Below, piece after piece: positions 1,135 to 62,285 of a stretch of 64,000 nucleotides of DNA; the first letter of the stretch is position 1; each line of letters starts with the position of its first letter. A program made the position numbers and the translations under genes. The notes under the pieces were generated by a model, which had not been told where the DNA came from, ran no database searches, and was given only the letters and a program-made list of their open reading frames with translations. The DNA is from Eunapius fragilis (taxonomy: Eukaryota; Porifera; Demospongiae; Spongillida; Spongillidae): NCBI GenBank assembly GCA_963681505.1, contig OY811978.1:7676262-7740261 (forward strand), written 5' to 3'.

Positions 1135-1432
1135 AACAAGTAAATAAAAACATTCTCTAACGAGAAAGTTGTTGGTATATAGGATTGACCAATGGTGGTG
1201 TAAAAAGCACGGAAACAAGAGTGACAGAAATTTGACTGGAAAATTGAAATAGGCCTATATTTAGCACACTCACATGATAACAGTGCATGTCTGAGCAATG
1301 GGCTAAATATAGGCCTATTTCAATTTTCCAGTCAAATTTCTGTCACTCTTGTTTCCGTGCTTTTTACACCACCATTGGTCAATCCTATATACCAACAACT
1401 TTCTCGTTAGAGAATGTTTTTATTTACTTGTT
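1135..1432. mobile_element. Foldback MITE-like element, copy A
   Basis: A nearly perfect 298 bp palindrome. It starts with AACAAGTAAATAAAAACATT and ends with the reverse complement of that motif. The arms pair almost without mismatch over about 130 bp around a short loop near 1275-1290. Conserved boxes seen in the other copies are present: CTCTAACGAGAAAGTT near the end, GGTGTAAAAAGC followed by GGAAACAAG in mid-arm (1196-1219), and CCTATATTTAGCAC by the loop. It has no coding capacity. No convincing target-site duplication was found. It is a non-autonomous foldback element of unassigned superfamily. Confidence 0.85.
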
Positions 1433-2526
1433 AGCTATATAATCGATTAAAAACGAACTGAGGATGGATACCGTTTGACCCAAACGATTATGGAACTGCA
1501 ACAAGCGTAAGCGTTCAAGTTTACTTCACGTACCGATGGATGGATACCGTTAATTAGAATCTAACTCGTGCCACAAGTGGAACTGAAATGATGCAAGGTG
1601 CTCACCGAACTTAACGATTACTGTCTGTCACTTGTATCGACGTATGTAATAAAATAGACTCCTTTATATACCTGCCTGTATCGTCTGTAACCAAAAATCT
1701 AAATGATACTTCCGCCGCCCGCCCCCCCCCCCCCCCCCCCCCCCATGGCAAACGTGGGGGGGGGGGGGGGGCAATAGCCCGCCTTGCCCCCCCCCCCCCC
1801 CCCGTCTCCGCCGCCTATGAATTGGTTAGCGTGCTTACTCTATTAATGAGTAATAGTGCTAGACCTTTGATATACTTGAGATTCCTATTCTTTCCTAGAG
1901 AACTCAAGCCAAAGTACACTACCCTTTCATTGTCGAACTCGACTTATCCTATCGTCACAAGTCTAGGTACAACTACTGCAAATGGCATATCGTTCAAACC
2001 TATTTCATACCACCGAATGAAAACAGAAAAATGCCCAGTACCAGGCATAACAGCGTGATAAAAACGTGTGACAAAAAACGTGTTTACCACGCAATGATAA
2101 AAAAGACACCTCTCCGAAACAGAGGAACCACGCTCTTTAGTCGGTTGGATATCACAACACACAACGACCGAACAGTAAAAAATAAATTATAACTCACATG
2201 TCAAAGGCAGCTGTCTAGTACTTTCACGAGCGATATTAGATCACATGGGGAATAGTTCGTGCCCAGACCTGACTATGCGATAATGCTTACATAATAGGGG
2301 AACGAGAGTGGTTTACTGCACAAAGGTTGAAACAAAAGAAATTCCACTGAATAAAACAGCTCTTTATGTTTTTGTTATTATTAAACAAATTTTTAAAATA
2401 AACAGTTACAGTTATAAGCATACAAACACACTTGAACCCCAGAAACGCGAGCCCCAATAACTGAAGCATCATTGCCCCGTTGGATAGTCACAACAAGTTC
2501 TGCATAAGGAATGAGAATGACCACTG
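1433..2526. other. Gene-free stretch with C/G homopolymers
   Basis: Apart from alternating poly-C, poly-G and poly-C runs at about 1719-1803 (a potential hairpin or G-quadruplex former), no gene, RNA gene or recognisable repeat was seen. Short open frames here lack coding character. Confidence 0.5.
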
Positions 2527-2696
2527 CTCCCAGACTTCTTGGCACTACAGGAACCAGACTCCGTGGCACTACAGGCACCAGGCTCCTTGGCACTACAGGC
2601 ACCAGGCTCCTTGGCACTATGGGCACCAGGCTCCTTGGCACTACAGATACCAGACTCTTGGCACTATGGGTACCAGGCTCCTTGGCACTGTGACCT
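2527..2696. repeat. 24 bp minisatellite
   Basis: About seven copies of a 24 bp unit, CTTGGCACTACAGGCACCAG plus GCTC, with point variants. All frames stay open because the unit length is a multiple of three. The repetitive peptides are artefacts of the array. Confidence 0.85.
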
Positions 2697-4433
2697 TGTG
2701 AGACCACACAGAGGAGGCATCATACCAGTAGGAACACTGACAATGCTTAAATAAAGAGATAGTACACTGCACACAAGCAAAAGCAAGCTGTTGGTTGAAG
2801 CTTAAAAAGCTGATGGGGGCTACATGTGGCAGTCTGAATGACCAGGCCATCACGTGTTTAACAGGCAGGCTAGCTTGGATCCAACTTTGATCATCACTGG
2901 AGGAGCGAACATTTCACAATATTACTCAATACTGGTGGAGAGAGTTGGTGTAAGGAAACATGGTGATATTTGCAACTGATACAATAACTTAGAATGGCAA
3001 AGGAGTGTCTCAAAAAGAGTGTCATGAGAAAAAGATGTTTCAACCTATCACCCACGGTCTTCAGTAGGTTCACCTTTTCCAATAGAGCAGCAGAATGTGA
3101 TACATTATCCCCAACGGGGGTACCAAGCAGAGCTAGGCAATTCAGAAGGATCCTGGCAGACGGGTAGGTACATCAGAGATAACAACAAGGTATCCTCCCC
3201 TATTGTTGATATGGCTATCCACCAGAGGTCATGGGACTTCCCCATCATTAAATCCATCAGATAACTTACTTTGAACCTTCACATCATGTCTGCCATAATG
3301 CACATTTGCCACTGCACTGCTGTGCCCAAATTGTGCAGATGTGATATCACCACCCATCACATTGCAAAAAATGCACCCACTAGATTATAATGCACAAAGG
3401 ATAAGGATGAATCTCTGTATTCATCAAACAGCCTTCTGAACACCTTCCTGCTGGAATGTTTAATGCCTCCTATGACTATCAATGAGTAGTTTTATACTCT
3501 CTCCTCATTCTGTCCCAGGAAGGTGGCTGCTAGGACGCAGAAAATGCTTTGAGCTCAGGCATCCCCTAGTCATCGTCTAAAAAACCAATAAACACACTGA
3601 CAAAATAACAGGATACATTTCAAGAAATGCAGCATGTAATGATATCAAGATATAATTAATATGCTCGCCCATGTCTTCTTTGCTTTCTGGTATGTGTTAT
3701 ATACAATAGAGTACGTGATAGTGTTCTGCATATACTTTTTCCTCTTCGGAAGGGCTTAGCATGTAGCCATTTCCACAAAGGATTTACCTGAAGCAGCTGT
3801 GTGCTTGTTTGCATTTATATAGATAAGATGTGTGTGCCTATAATTTTACCACTGTGGTTTTATTACATTTGAGAATGTAGCAATGCGTGAGCATTGAAAT
3901 TCACACACACACACACACACACACACACACACACATGCAGTACACTTGCACACCTACACACATACTTGTGTGTGTGTGAAAAGAAATCTAAGACAGTGGC
4001 GGTTTGGCCAGGGGTGCAAATGCCCCCTCCCCTCCCCCCCCCCCCCCCCCCCCTCCCAGCGGACCCCTAAAAGGGGGGGGGGGGGGGGGGGTGCCAAAAT
4101 ACCTACCAGCGCAATTTCAGACCTCTCCGACTGGTGGTGGTAGGGTACCATTTAAGTGTTGTGCCCCCCCCAGGTAATTAATACCCAGACCGCCAATGAG
4201 CTAAGACCCACTTTACATATGCAGTCATTTAATGGGCTTATTAGTTGTCGTAATATTTCAAAAATGCACCGCAAGCTGCTAACCCAGAGTACTTTAACAC
4301 TGTTTGGTACATGGTACTGAGGCTAGCTAATGCAGAAGTGCATTGTAGTAAAATGCAGTCGAATAATTTAAAGATTTATTTGAAATTGTGATTAGGCTCG
4401 ACTTCTTTCTGCCTCTGCTCCTCATGCTAGTCT
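2697..4433. other. Gene-free stretch with simple repeats
   Basis: The stretch holds a (CA)n tract at about 3903-3936, and a poly-C run followed by a poly-G run at about 4026-4092. The homopolymers lie between GACAGTGGCGGTTTGG (about 3994) and CCAGACCGCCAATGAG (about 4186), a weak inverted pair that may mark a small element. No supported gene. Confidence 0.4.
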
Positions 4434-60850: not shown

Positions 60851-61663
60851 AAGGAACTTCAAATAATAATCTTGTGCAATCATTCTATTTCTCATCAACT
60901 TAATAATATGCTAATTTGCAGGTGCACTTGTACAAAAAACTATAAAGTTCTTCATTCTTGCTGTGGCTCAGAAGGCCTGCATTTTTGAGAAATGAAATGA
61001 TTAATTCTGTGACCACAATGTTTACAATGATCTCATATCACTTCTGAGCCACGAAAATGACTGCATACTTTTTTGTGGAGAGAGCATAAGTAAGACATAA
61101 AGAAAAGAAGTCAGTATAATAATCAGATGTCCAGTATGTTAAATAGTCAAGTACATATTACTTACTTACACATCAGAAATAAATTATACCTAATGTATAT
61201 TTTTATCAGGTAACTGTAAACGTTATGTACAAACAGTTAATAAGCATTTAGTTAGTTTGAAATTTCAGGTGGGCCTAAATGCTGTCATAGACCAGCATTG
61301 TTCAATTGAAGGAATTCAGGTTCAATTAATGCTATTGAAAATTCCAATAGTGTATGTGGGTATCTGAAACTTCAGACAGACCTAAGTCAATACCTTTTTT
61401 GATTTATTTGAAATTTTAGGTAACTCAAAAGTCTGATAATAATTATTGGATAAATAAAAACCAGTGATTGACGTTTTAGTGAATGAATATATGCATATGT
61501 GCTGATGATTTCTGAAATTTCAGATACACCAAACATTGTATATGAGAATGCATTGCTACATATCATTTCTTTTAATTTGAAATTTCAGACATGTTTAAAA
61601 TTTATTACAGCAATGTGTAATTTAGAATCTTTTCCCCTATCTTTCCCCTATATCATTCAACAG
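60851..61663. other. Gene-free AT-rich stretch
   Basis: Contains several AATTTCAG words (GAAATTTCAGGTGG, GAAATTTCAGATAC, GAAATTTCAGACAT) about 120-150 bp apart, hinting at a very old degenerate repeat. No gene. Confidence 0.35.
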
Positions 61664-61752
61664 ATTTACTAAAGGCAGTACAGCATTCTAAAAGGAATGC
61701 CATAGTTGCATCAAAAGACGCAAACAAATTAATGCAAAAATTGAAAAAATGA
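61664..61752 (+). CDS. Weak candidate terminal exon
   Basis: After the acceptor CATTCAACAG the frame reads LLKAVQHSKRNAIVASKDAN KLMQKLKK and a stop. Basic and helical in character. Not recognised. Confidence 0.25.
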
Positions 61753-62082
61753 TGAGCTGTTCTGAGTCTCCTGCCATTGTGAACAATCCTGCCACTCCTG
61801 CCACTCCTGCCATCGTTTACAGTCCTGTATATTAATTTTAAACACTTTCTTCTTGCACATTGTATTAATCATTTAATTCCATCCATTTCATGCATCACAT
61901 AATTTATGTCACGTATTATTATCTAATTCTTATGATACTGTGCAAACACAATTCTGATCGTTGAAGATACTATAAGCAATTCAGCACAATTTTGCAAACA
62001 AAAGCACTGAGCTGCATTTCTTATGCAATATCATAAATTCCTGCAGCATTCTATTTGGAATTTAAAATTCTACAATGAGGAG

Positions 62083-62285
62083 TTAAAGGTAATGTAAAAA
62101 GGAAGGGAACAAAGATTTTTTTTTGGGGGGGGGGGGGGGGGAAGGGACTAAAATCCTATATTTTGCACTTCGTTTGGTTCTAGTACATTTACACGTGCTA
62201 AATATAGAAATTTTTTTCTTTTCTCAAAACCTTGATCCCTTCCTTTTTGCACCAACTTTGCCTTCAATTCCTATATCCCACCAAC
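62083..62285. mobile_element. Inner arms and right arm of foldback element, copy E
   Basis: The left inner arm (AATGTAAAAAGGAAGGGAAC, 62091-62110) pairs with the right arm (GATCCCTTCCTTTTTGCACC). GTGCTAAATATAG is the loop-side box. The right arm continues AACTTTGCCTTCAATTCCTA TATCCCACCAAC and then lacks the final AACAAGTAAAT box. A G-run at 62125-62141 interrupts the left arm. Confidence 0.65.

Follow-up and report, generated by a model that had tools for sequence, protein, structure and literature searches.

The window, by which we mean the whole stretch of 64,000 nucleotides of Eunapius fragilis DNA analysed here (contig OY811978.1, positions 7,676,262 to 7,740,261), holds three copies of a foldback-ended element, one each of the types A, B and C. 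Their features are listed below, with copies numbered in the order in which they lie.

1..1430, plus strand: copy 1, A type, the 3' part of a non-autonomous Helitron, with the conserved A-type body flank and a CTTG end followed by T
1137..1430, plus strand: terminal foldback of copy 1, CAAG...CTTG; base 1431 is the target T
16041..18070, minus strand: copy 2, B type, a complete non-autonomous Helitron, with 5'-TC at 18070 and CTTG-3' at 16041
18047..18070, minus strand: 5' end of copy 2, TC and hairpin GGAAGTTTC-GTTA-GAAACTTCC, then ATATAGGATTTGA
16903..17562, no strand assigned: tandem repeat with a 200-bp unit, 3.3 copies, inside the variable body of copy 2
16041..16324, minus strand: terminal foldback of copy 2, arms fully complementary (100%); relative to the body, the loop has the commoner orientation (n)
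51781..53417, plus strand: copy 3, C type, body and terminal foldback; the body is common to locus L010 from 51781
53133..53417, plus strand: terminal foldback of copy 3, loop inverted, an orientation found in 2 of 22 C-type copies

Foldbacks in the window and their subfamilies

All three foldbacks, placed at 1135-1432, 16039-16326 and 53131-53419 in a preliminary description of this DNA, are real palindromes. In copies 1, 2 and 3, respectively, arm length is 134, 133 and 133 nt and complementarity between the arms 99, 100 and 98%; the spacer is 22-30 nt. As a single strand copy 2 folds at -154.3 kcal/mol, compared with a mean of -22.7 for shuffled sequences (z -38.9). The boxes that the copies had been said to share are present, some as variants, viz. 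GCACGG in copy 1, and AACAAGTAGATAAAAAATT and CCTACATTTAGCC in copy 3. A box scan of the window allowing up to 3 substitutions recovers just these three foldbacks and no fourth, so the end coordinate of 62285 given previously is unaccounted for. Copy 2 is inserted between A (18071) and T (the complement of 16040). Copy 1 begins outside the window: its left end, an A-type TC, is 1137 bases ahead of it (C8:7675124, locus L107). For copy 3 the window contains no recognisable left TC end.

The middle segments of the arms had been thought private to each copy, a view that we reject since the same segments recur genome-wide: segments 1, 2 and 3 are found at 1797, 2407 and 48 places, respectively (up to 3 mismatches; 895 + 902, 1190 + 1217 and 22 + 26, with two arms per copy), and the mid-arm box at 2078 + 2073 places. 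The arm segments mark subfamilies, in tens to over a thousand copies. The further claim that they are unrelated across copies is true of the C type (copy 3) against the others, where z is at most 0.6, but not of copies 1 and 2, whose segments hardly align directly (A1-B, z 1.5) and are linked through intermediates (z 5.7 for B-E, 3.7 for B-D, 2.8 for A1-E and 2.2 for A1-D). Capture of new sequence followed by inverted duplication, which had been suggested as an origin of the arms, is unsupported as a routine event, as most arm segments resemble diverged homologues, and is possible for the C-type segment.

The family was sampled through 110 box-defined entries (one foldback may give two), from which 76 foldbacks were typed. 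These are a non-random sample, mostly exact box matches in the first 4.8 Mb of C1, with the C type drawn from 20 of the genome-wide segment-3 places and a few B copies from segment-2 places. Loci L001-L008, being duplicates of other loci, were left out of typing, L096 (a collapsed hairpin), L088 and L101 are untyped, and the arm tests omitted 2 of the 76 typed foldbacks ('o'); the segmental duplicates L056/L057, L062-L064 and L091/L092 were kept in the orientation and arm counts. The body side of each foldback was assigned by scoring.

Helitron termini with an unusual 3' end

The flank on one side of each foldback is conserved and that on the other side is not, with a recognisable body on one side in 74 of the 76 typed copies, and hence the foldback is the end of a longer element. 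The layout of this element is TC preceded by A, a small 5' hairpin, the body, and a hairpin of 283-295 nt that runs to the last base of a CTTG end, which is followed by T. T follows TACTTG in all 67 distinct right flanks (5 copies are missing an intact TACTTG), and on the left all 25 recognised ends have A before TC, in a list read by eye. The 5' hairpin, with a 9-bp stem and a 4-nt loop, lies at or adjoining TC in the A, B and C types, and the CTTG 3' end is seen in all six subfamily consensuses as well as in the D element considered below. A motif, ATRTAGGATT, is common to the 5' end and the foldback arms; because it changes jointly at both ends of the element, the boxes probably serve for binding or for end recognition.

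Foldback (FB) elements and MITEs are likewise near-palindromic repeats present in many copies, having two transposase-cut ends and target duplications. In the sponge elements, by contrast, the palindrome is at one Helitron end only, and five whole copies have no duplicated flank by eye; a stand-alone foldback element or MITE was therefore rejected.

Elements with such foldback ends contain open RepHel frames, of 1976 and 1977 aa. The 1976-aa frame belongs to a locus on C9 running from TC at 6657091 to CTTG at 6666524, and the 1977-aa frame to the D element (L111), whose terminal foldback has perfect arms of 129 bp. The latter frame matches PF14214 (2.4e-26) and PIF1 (6.9e-20) and contains an HYH motif and YVTGYVTK, both identified by eye; over 1921 of its 1977 aa, at E 0.001, there was no match to an endonuclease family besides Rep. 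A family with a 1995-aa RepHel has no foldback in the 5 kb after the frame. An assignment of the RepHel at C1:1405918 to the A copy at C1:1416644, as its body, was rejected, since that copy has its own left end (L089:554). SRCR-like frames were also noticed. Both features that define the Helitron superfamily are present, i.e. the HUH nuclease joined to a Pif1-type helicase and insertion between A and T without target duplication. The window palindromes are the 3' ends of Helitrons with an unusual 3' end, in a family made up of Helitrons whose RepHel frames are open and of numerous non-autonomous derivatives.

Canonical Helitrons (Helitron1, e.g. Helraiser and Helibat1), as portrayed in the accessible text of PMC4778049 and PMC4067079, resemble these elements in the RepHel with HUH and helicase domains, the 5'-TC (found at the same 25 of 25 left ends, by eye), insertion between A and T and the possession of a 3' hairpin. 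Their 3' end, however, is CTRR/CTAG with a hairpin of 16-20 nt about 11 nt inside, whereas the sponge elements end in CTTG, their far longer hairpin includes the last base and a 5' hairpin is present; the accessible text of the same two papers makes no mention of loop inversion or concerted arms for Helitron1. Helitron2, Helentrons and HINEs are described (PMC3627910, PMC4067079, PMC5148889) as having hairpins at both ends, the 5' one close to the terminus, tandem repeats inside some non-autonomous copies, and compensatory changes in short terminal hairpins. The sponge elements are like them in having hairpins at both ends, including the 5'-terminal hairpin of Helitron2, and internal tandem repeats, but their target is A and T rather than T-rich, and the T-T target of Helentrons and, in the D frame, their endonuclease are not found. 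Inspection by eye revealed no second copy of the 5' terminus ahead of the 3' hairpin, of the kind that forms the asymmetric terminal inverted repeat (8-15 bp) of Helitron2; instead ATRTAGGATT is shared with the 5' end, and it lies inside the foldback, not upstream. Among the titles and abstract openings searched, which took in few subscription journals and excluded Repbase Reports, no Helitron with a long flush 3' hairpin or with loop inversion appeared.

Concerted arms and inverted loops

The consensus arms are perfect in six subfamilies (B 131, Bp 133, A1 129, A2 134, C 128 and Cauto 128 bp), despite 8-46 arm positions that differ between subfamilies, nearly always in both arms. Symmetric versus asymmetric differences number 9/0, 19/0, 36/0, 46/0 and 42/0 in five pairs of subfamilies, and between C and Cauto 8 are symmetric and 3 asymmetric, all 3 at the loop edge. 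This pattern excludes independent divergence of the arms and bears out the earlier argument that arm-to-arm copying is needed. That argument had been made to depend on arm identity being higher within copies than between them; within subfamilies the two nearly coincide (0.950-0.989 within copies versus 0.923-0.985 between copies), while between subfamilies the within-copy identity is the higher.

Pairing that persists across subfamilies is also what selection on a long dsRNA (or cruciform DNA) would give, with compensatory changes keeping the arms paired, and long hairpin transcripts can be functional. Such selection needs one-armed states, however, and none is fixed in 5 of the 6 subfamily pairs, the sixth having them at the loop edge alone; single copies show mostly one-armed changes, and loop inversion is not predicted. 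We regard this explanation as improbable.

The 74 individual copies contain 29 distinct substitutions that both arms carry in identical form, compared with about 0.17 expected by chance from a simple calculation (3 of the 5 B-type cases come from one divergent copy, L072), and 118 that are one-armed. By a recount from the lists, 13 of the 29 both-arm and 10 of the 118 one-arm substitutions are seen in at least two copies. The 10 shared one-arm substitutions comprise 4 in segmental duplicates, 3 at the A2 loop edge, and one each in B (position 102), Bp (38) and A1 (97); some one-arm deletions, too, are shared, at position 91 in Bp and at 126, 129 and 130 in B. The existence of these shared one-arm changes indicates that homogenisation does not happen at every round. 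An A>T change at position 109 is in both arms of window copy 3 and in one arm only of L049, the loop of which is inverted, and from its sequence L049 looks like an intermediate of copy 3.

Loop inversion is recurrent. Of 192 A2 copies, 78 have the loop inverted with respect to the body (41%; 114 not inverted; whole totals), as do 23 of 123 exact matches in B (100 versus 23, counted by eye over one stretch, C1 to C4:11.38 Mb), rates that differ at p = 4e-5; the B totals with up to 3 mismatches (465 and 172) include far-arm matches and were unused. Inverted loops in the typed sample number 3 of 8 in A2, 4 of 18 of known side in B and 2 of 22 in C, and none was seen among 9 A1, 8 Bp (plus one of unassigned side) and 7 Cauto copies, together 0 of 24. 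The two orientations are both represented in A2, B and C and a single one in A1, Bp and Cauto, and inversion is neither obligatory nor uniform. Variants of the proximal arm in A2 (CCTTCTC, CATTCTC and GGTGGTG) each occur with both loop orientations. Inversion is found in 20 of 28 zero-mismatch A2 copies versus 58 of 164 others (p 6e-4), the zero-mismatch class being one arm variant whose ancestry may be common. The mirror-image A copies L088 and L101 were rejected as evidence of arm swapping, since both of their flanks are common, i.e. they are a segmental duplication.

Resident copies might owe both symmetry and inversion to ordinary gene conversion or recombination between their arms, apart from transposition: long inverted repeats recombine, and 16 of the 29 both-arm substitutions are in one copy only. 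We think it unlikely, as 108 of the 118 one-arm substitutions are also confined to one copy, from which it follows that resident copies are not efficiently homogenised; moreover, inversion is commonest in the zero-mismatch A2 copies, and rates vary among subfamilies of similar arm length. It is very improbable that perfect arms and inverted loops are assembly artefacts of unresolved palindromes. Arms of ~130 bp are hard for short reads, but no N occurs in the 356,937 bases examined, one-arm differences are resolved, and inversion varies by subfamily, as between A2 and B.

Probable recopying of the terminal hairpin

The foldbacks are thus Helitron 3' termini, and their hairpin is probably recopied from itself during transposition. 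In replicative transposition of the HUH, rolling-circle type, a displaced single strand would fold into the hairpin, the most economical place for arm-to-arm copying. There one arm would serve as the template for renewing the other, through snap-back synthesis, template-switch synthesis or mismatch repair inside the hairpin, giving identical arms in each active lineage; the loop would sometimes be inverted, by strand switching or by nicking and recopying of the hairpin, and the arms would decay independently once inserted. Template switching is described as restoring perfect stems in one event, mostly in the short stems of RNA genes, and whole-loop inversion by inter-strand switching is reported as very rare (PMC8794818), whereas here arms of 130 bp lie at a transposon end and inversion reaches 41% of a subfamily.

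A rival route, rolling-hairpin replication, in which the flush 3' end primes the second strand and, after a Rep nick at the base, the hairpin is copied again, with parvovirus-like flip and flop as the outcome, would fit the pairing that reaches the terminal base and the high inversion in A2, and the same route explains flip and flop of AAV ends (PMC11575299). The AAV terminal repeat described there, with 125 palindromic nt, is similarly a terminal hairpin with its inner part in two orientations; the sponge elements differ in that the giant hairpin is single, Rep is fused to a helicase, the copies are those of an integrated transposon, and orientation is not always mixed. The rival is possible but doubtful, given the absence of inversion in A1, Bp and Cauto, the large hairpin at one end only, and the circular double-stranded intermediates reported for Helraiser (PMC5876387); it would also swap the arms, yet not thereby make them identical. 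Equally tentative is the idea that Rep nicks at the mirror-image CAAG/CTTG of the hairpin base might resolve a parvovirus-like self-primed end. If this were true, transposition would alternate flip and flop and rewrite one arm from the other, and the element would link rolling-circle transposons with rolling-hairpin replication.

The step from single to double strand and the renewal of 3' ends are unsettled in Helitrons. In this genome natural hairpin ends number some two thousand or more and are tagged by their loop orientation and by substitutions in the arms, so that the frequency of recopying and of inversion per transposition round can be measured. If recopying of the hairpin from itself is the true reading, copying alone can keep perfect stems, and 'compensatory' changes in hairpins would therefore not need to mean selection on RNA.

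Foldbacks of the window and their spread through the genome

All three foldbacks of the preliminary description (copies 1, 2 and 3) are present in the window, with arms of 133-134 nt and 98-100% complementarity. Predicted folding of copy 2 as single-stranded DNA gives one unbroken hairpin at -154.3 kcal/mol (z -38.9 relative to shuffled sequences).

1137-1430, plus strand: foldback of copy 1, A type
16041-16324, minus strand: foldback of copy 2, B type
16041-18070, minus strand: whole B element of copy 2
53133-53417, plus strand: foldback of copy 3, C type

The suggestion that the arms are private to each copy was not borne out. 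The genome comprises 24 contigs totalling 219 Mb, the window being C8:7676262-7740261. It holds 2078 forward and 2073 reverse matches to the mid-arm box, and the middle arm segments of copies 1, 2 and 3 recur at 895 + 902, 1190 + 1217 and 22 + 26 places, respectively (up to 3 mismatches); the copies fall into six subfamilies, A1, A2, B, Bp, C and Cauto. Alignable intermediates join the middle segments of B and A with those of two further types, D and E (z 5.7 for B-E, 3.7 for B-D and 3.6 for D-E, with weaker links for A1-E, 2.8, and A1-D, 2.2); direct alignment of A1 with B gives z 1.5, and C-type segments do not align with those of A, B, D or E (z at most 0.6).

Elsewhere in the window, two 32-bp minisatellite arrays (32007-32604 and 33618-35147; 18.8 and 47.9 copies) lie about 1 kb apart in opposite orientation, forming a large imperfect inverted repeat, and several minus-strand open frames at 24233-36949 contain the repeated text YGAVRLVGG..., which by eye we take to be SRCR-like and which points to an animal genome.

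The foldback as the 3' end of a Helitron

Each foldback has one conserved flank (an A-tract with ATTAAGA, ACTTATGA or GCAAGGA), the opposite flank being unrelated genome; the side on which the element's body lies was assignable for 74 of 76 typed foldbacks. When the conserved flank is traced outward, whole elements emerge. Those of B start with A|TCGGAAGTTTC-GTTA-GAAACTTCC-ATATAGGATTTGA; a conserved block of ~370-390 bp follows, then a variable middle part, and CAAG...CTTG|T closes the element. The shortest B elements seen measure ~655-671 bp; A elements start with A|TCTGAACCTGC-GGCA-GCAGGTTCA-ATATAGGATTGA and C elements with A|TCAGGACCTAC-GATA-GTAGGTCCT-ATGTAGGATTGG. T directly follows TACTTG in 67/67 distinct right flanks, the word itself being absent in 5 copies, and every recognised left end has A directly before TC (25 of 25, tallied by eye). 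A 5'-TC, A|T insertion and lack of target duplication are given as Helitron features in the cited parts of PMC4778049, PMC3627910 and PMC4067079, and, judged from their sequence, the foldback elements have all three. Since ATATAGGATTTGA, ATATAGGATTGA and ATGTAGGATTGG each stand at both ends of B, A and C elements, respectively, the foldback boxes may be end-recognition sites.

A small 5' hairpin also varies symmetrically between subfamilies (GTTTC/GAAAC vs GTCTC/GAGAC; ACCT/AGGT vs AACT/AGTT; e.g. L016:4385, L015:3721), resembling the 3' hairpin in miniature. At another sampled locus (L014, ~4737-4870) a second long foldback of different sequence (GTCTCGTACCCAGACCG...) was seen by eye within a B-type body.

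Foldbacks also terminate elements with open frames for the Helitron Rep and helicase protein (RepHel). PF14214 has 91 matches in the genome, many within open frames of 1767-2096 aa. At locus L023, PIF1 helicase frames lie upstream of a Cauto foldback, and a DNA search found seven RepHel loci matching its 3' part, the matches reaching the foldback side; six of the seven 3' ends retrieved have the foldback, and the seventh (L096, ~135-170), of Cauto type, has the giant hairpin reduced to ~45 nt, with the CTTG|T terminus kept (L091 and L092, with a common outer flank, are one segmental duplication). On contig C9, one element extends over 9,434 bp, from TC at 6657091 to CTTG at 6666524, and contains a 1976-aa open frame. 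In family D the frame is 1977 aa long and shows Helitron_like_N and PIF1 together with an HYH motif and YVTGYVTK; the foldback at the 3' end of the D element has perfect arms of 129 bp, and no left end was found. A-type bodies hold KADPEKKASVRDS-like repeats similar to the start of the D region, and A elements therefore look like deletion derivatives. A third RepHel family comprises 19 frames of 1995-1996 aa on many contigs (e.g. C6:5430972, C2:6546857), with no foldback within 5 kb after the frame at one locus; it is perhaps recently active, because 15 of the 19 frames have an identical score. Six RepHel matches to PF14214, at E 5e-60 or lower (C9:2930795, C2:9596102, C1:12743756 and three others), perhaps represent a second Helitron clade, the foldback-bearing kind scoring far worse (E ~1e-22 to 1e-26).

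Concerted evolution of the arms and inversion of the loop

Consensus arms, arm identity and loop orientation in the six subfamilies.
Subfamily; perfect consensus arms (bp); within-/between-copy arm identity; loop orientations relative to body (typed copies)
A1; 129; 0.977/0.959; 9 vs 0
A2; 134; 0.989/0.975; 5 vs 3
B; 131; 0.978/0.969; 14 vs 4 (+1 of unassigned side)
Bp; 133; 0.950/0.923; 8 vs 0 (one of unassigned side)
C; 128; 0.987/0.985; 20 vs 2
Cauto; 128; 0.973/0.959; 7 vs 0

Were the arms evolving independently, those within one consensus should differ as much as subfamilies do. They are perfect in all six consensuses, and differences between subfamilies are nearly all symmetric (symmetric/asymmetric: A1-A2 9/0, B-Bp 19/0, A1-B 36/0, B-C 46/0, A1-C 42/0; C-Cauto 8/3, the 3 at the loop edge), which upholds the earlier argument that arm-to-arm copying is needed. 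Inside subfamilies the proposed excess of within-copy over between-copy identity is present but only slight. Among 74 copies there are 29 distinct identical both-arm substitutions, against ~0.17 expected under a simple chance model (3 of the 5 B-type changes coming from one divergent copy, L072), and 118 one-arm substitutions. Thirteen of the 29 are common to at least two copies, compared with 10 of the 118; of these 10, 4 are in segmental duplicates and 3 at the A2 loop edge, and one each remains in B (position 102), Bp (38) and A1 (97). One-arm deletions are also shared (position 91 in Bp; 126, 129 and 130 in B). These distributions indicate that the active lineage makes its arms equal, not necessarily in each round, and that the arms decay separately after insertion.

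The loop between the arms has inverted recurrently: three variants of the A2 proximal arm (CCTTCTC, CATTCTC and GGTGGTG) each occur with both orientations (first 80 letters read). Fully spelled patterns gave 114 A2 loops vs 78 inverted genome-wide, and exact matches 100 B loops vs 23 inverted in the same part of C1-C4. Inverted loops are found in 20 of 28 zero-mismatch A2 copies vs 58 of 164 others, which argues against slow change in old copies, the zero-mismatch class being one arm variant for which common ancestry is possible. The inverted C copies are window copy 3, with 109 A>T in both arms, and L049, with it in one arm and a shortened loop; this single case suggests, from sequence comparison, the order expected under arm copying.

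A proposed route of arm copying

The displaced strand of a replicating Helitron would fold as a hairpin, within which one arm would serve as the template for renewing the other. According to the cited part of PMC8794818, perfect stems can be restored by template switching, and a switch that jumps strands can turn a loop round. The Helraiser transposon, in the portion of PMC5876387 drawn on here, must have a double-stranded donor, of which one strand is used, and has circular, double-stranded intermediates, in keeping with the copying of a displaced strand. A bolder reading is that the element's terminal base, which lies paired in the hairpin, could let its end prime its own second strand, by analogy with AAV, whose ends do so according to the relevant passage of PMC11575299; the 0/24 inversions across A1, Bp and Cauto speak against self-priming as a regular route. 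The element itself is no new kind; what is new is the form of its Helitron end.
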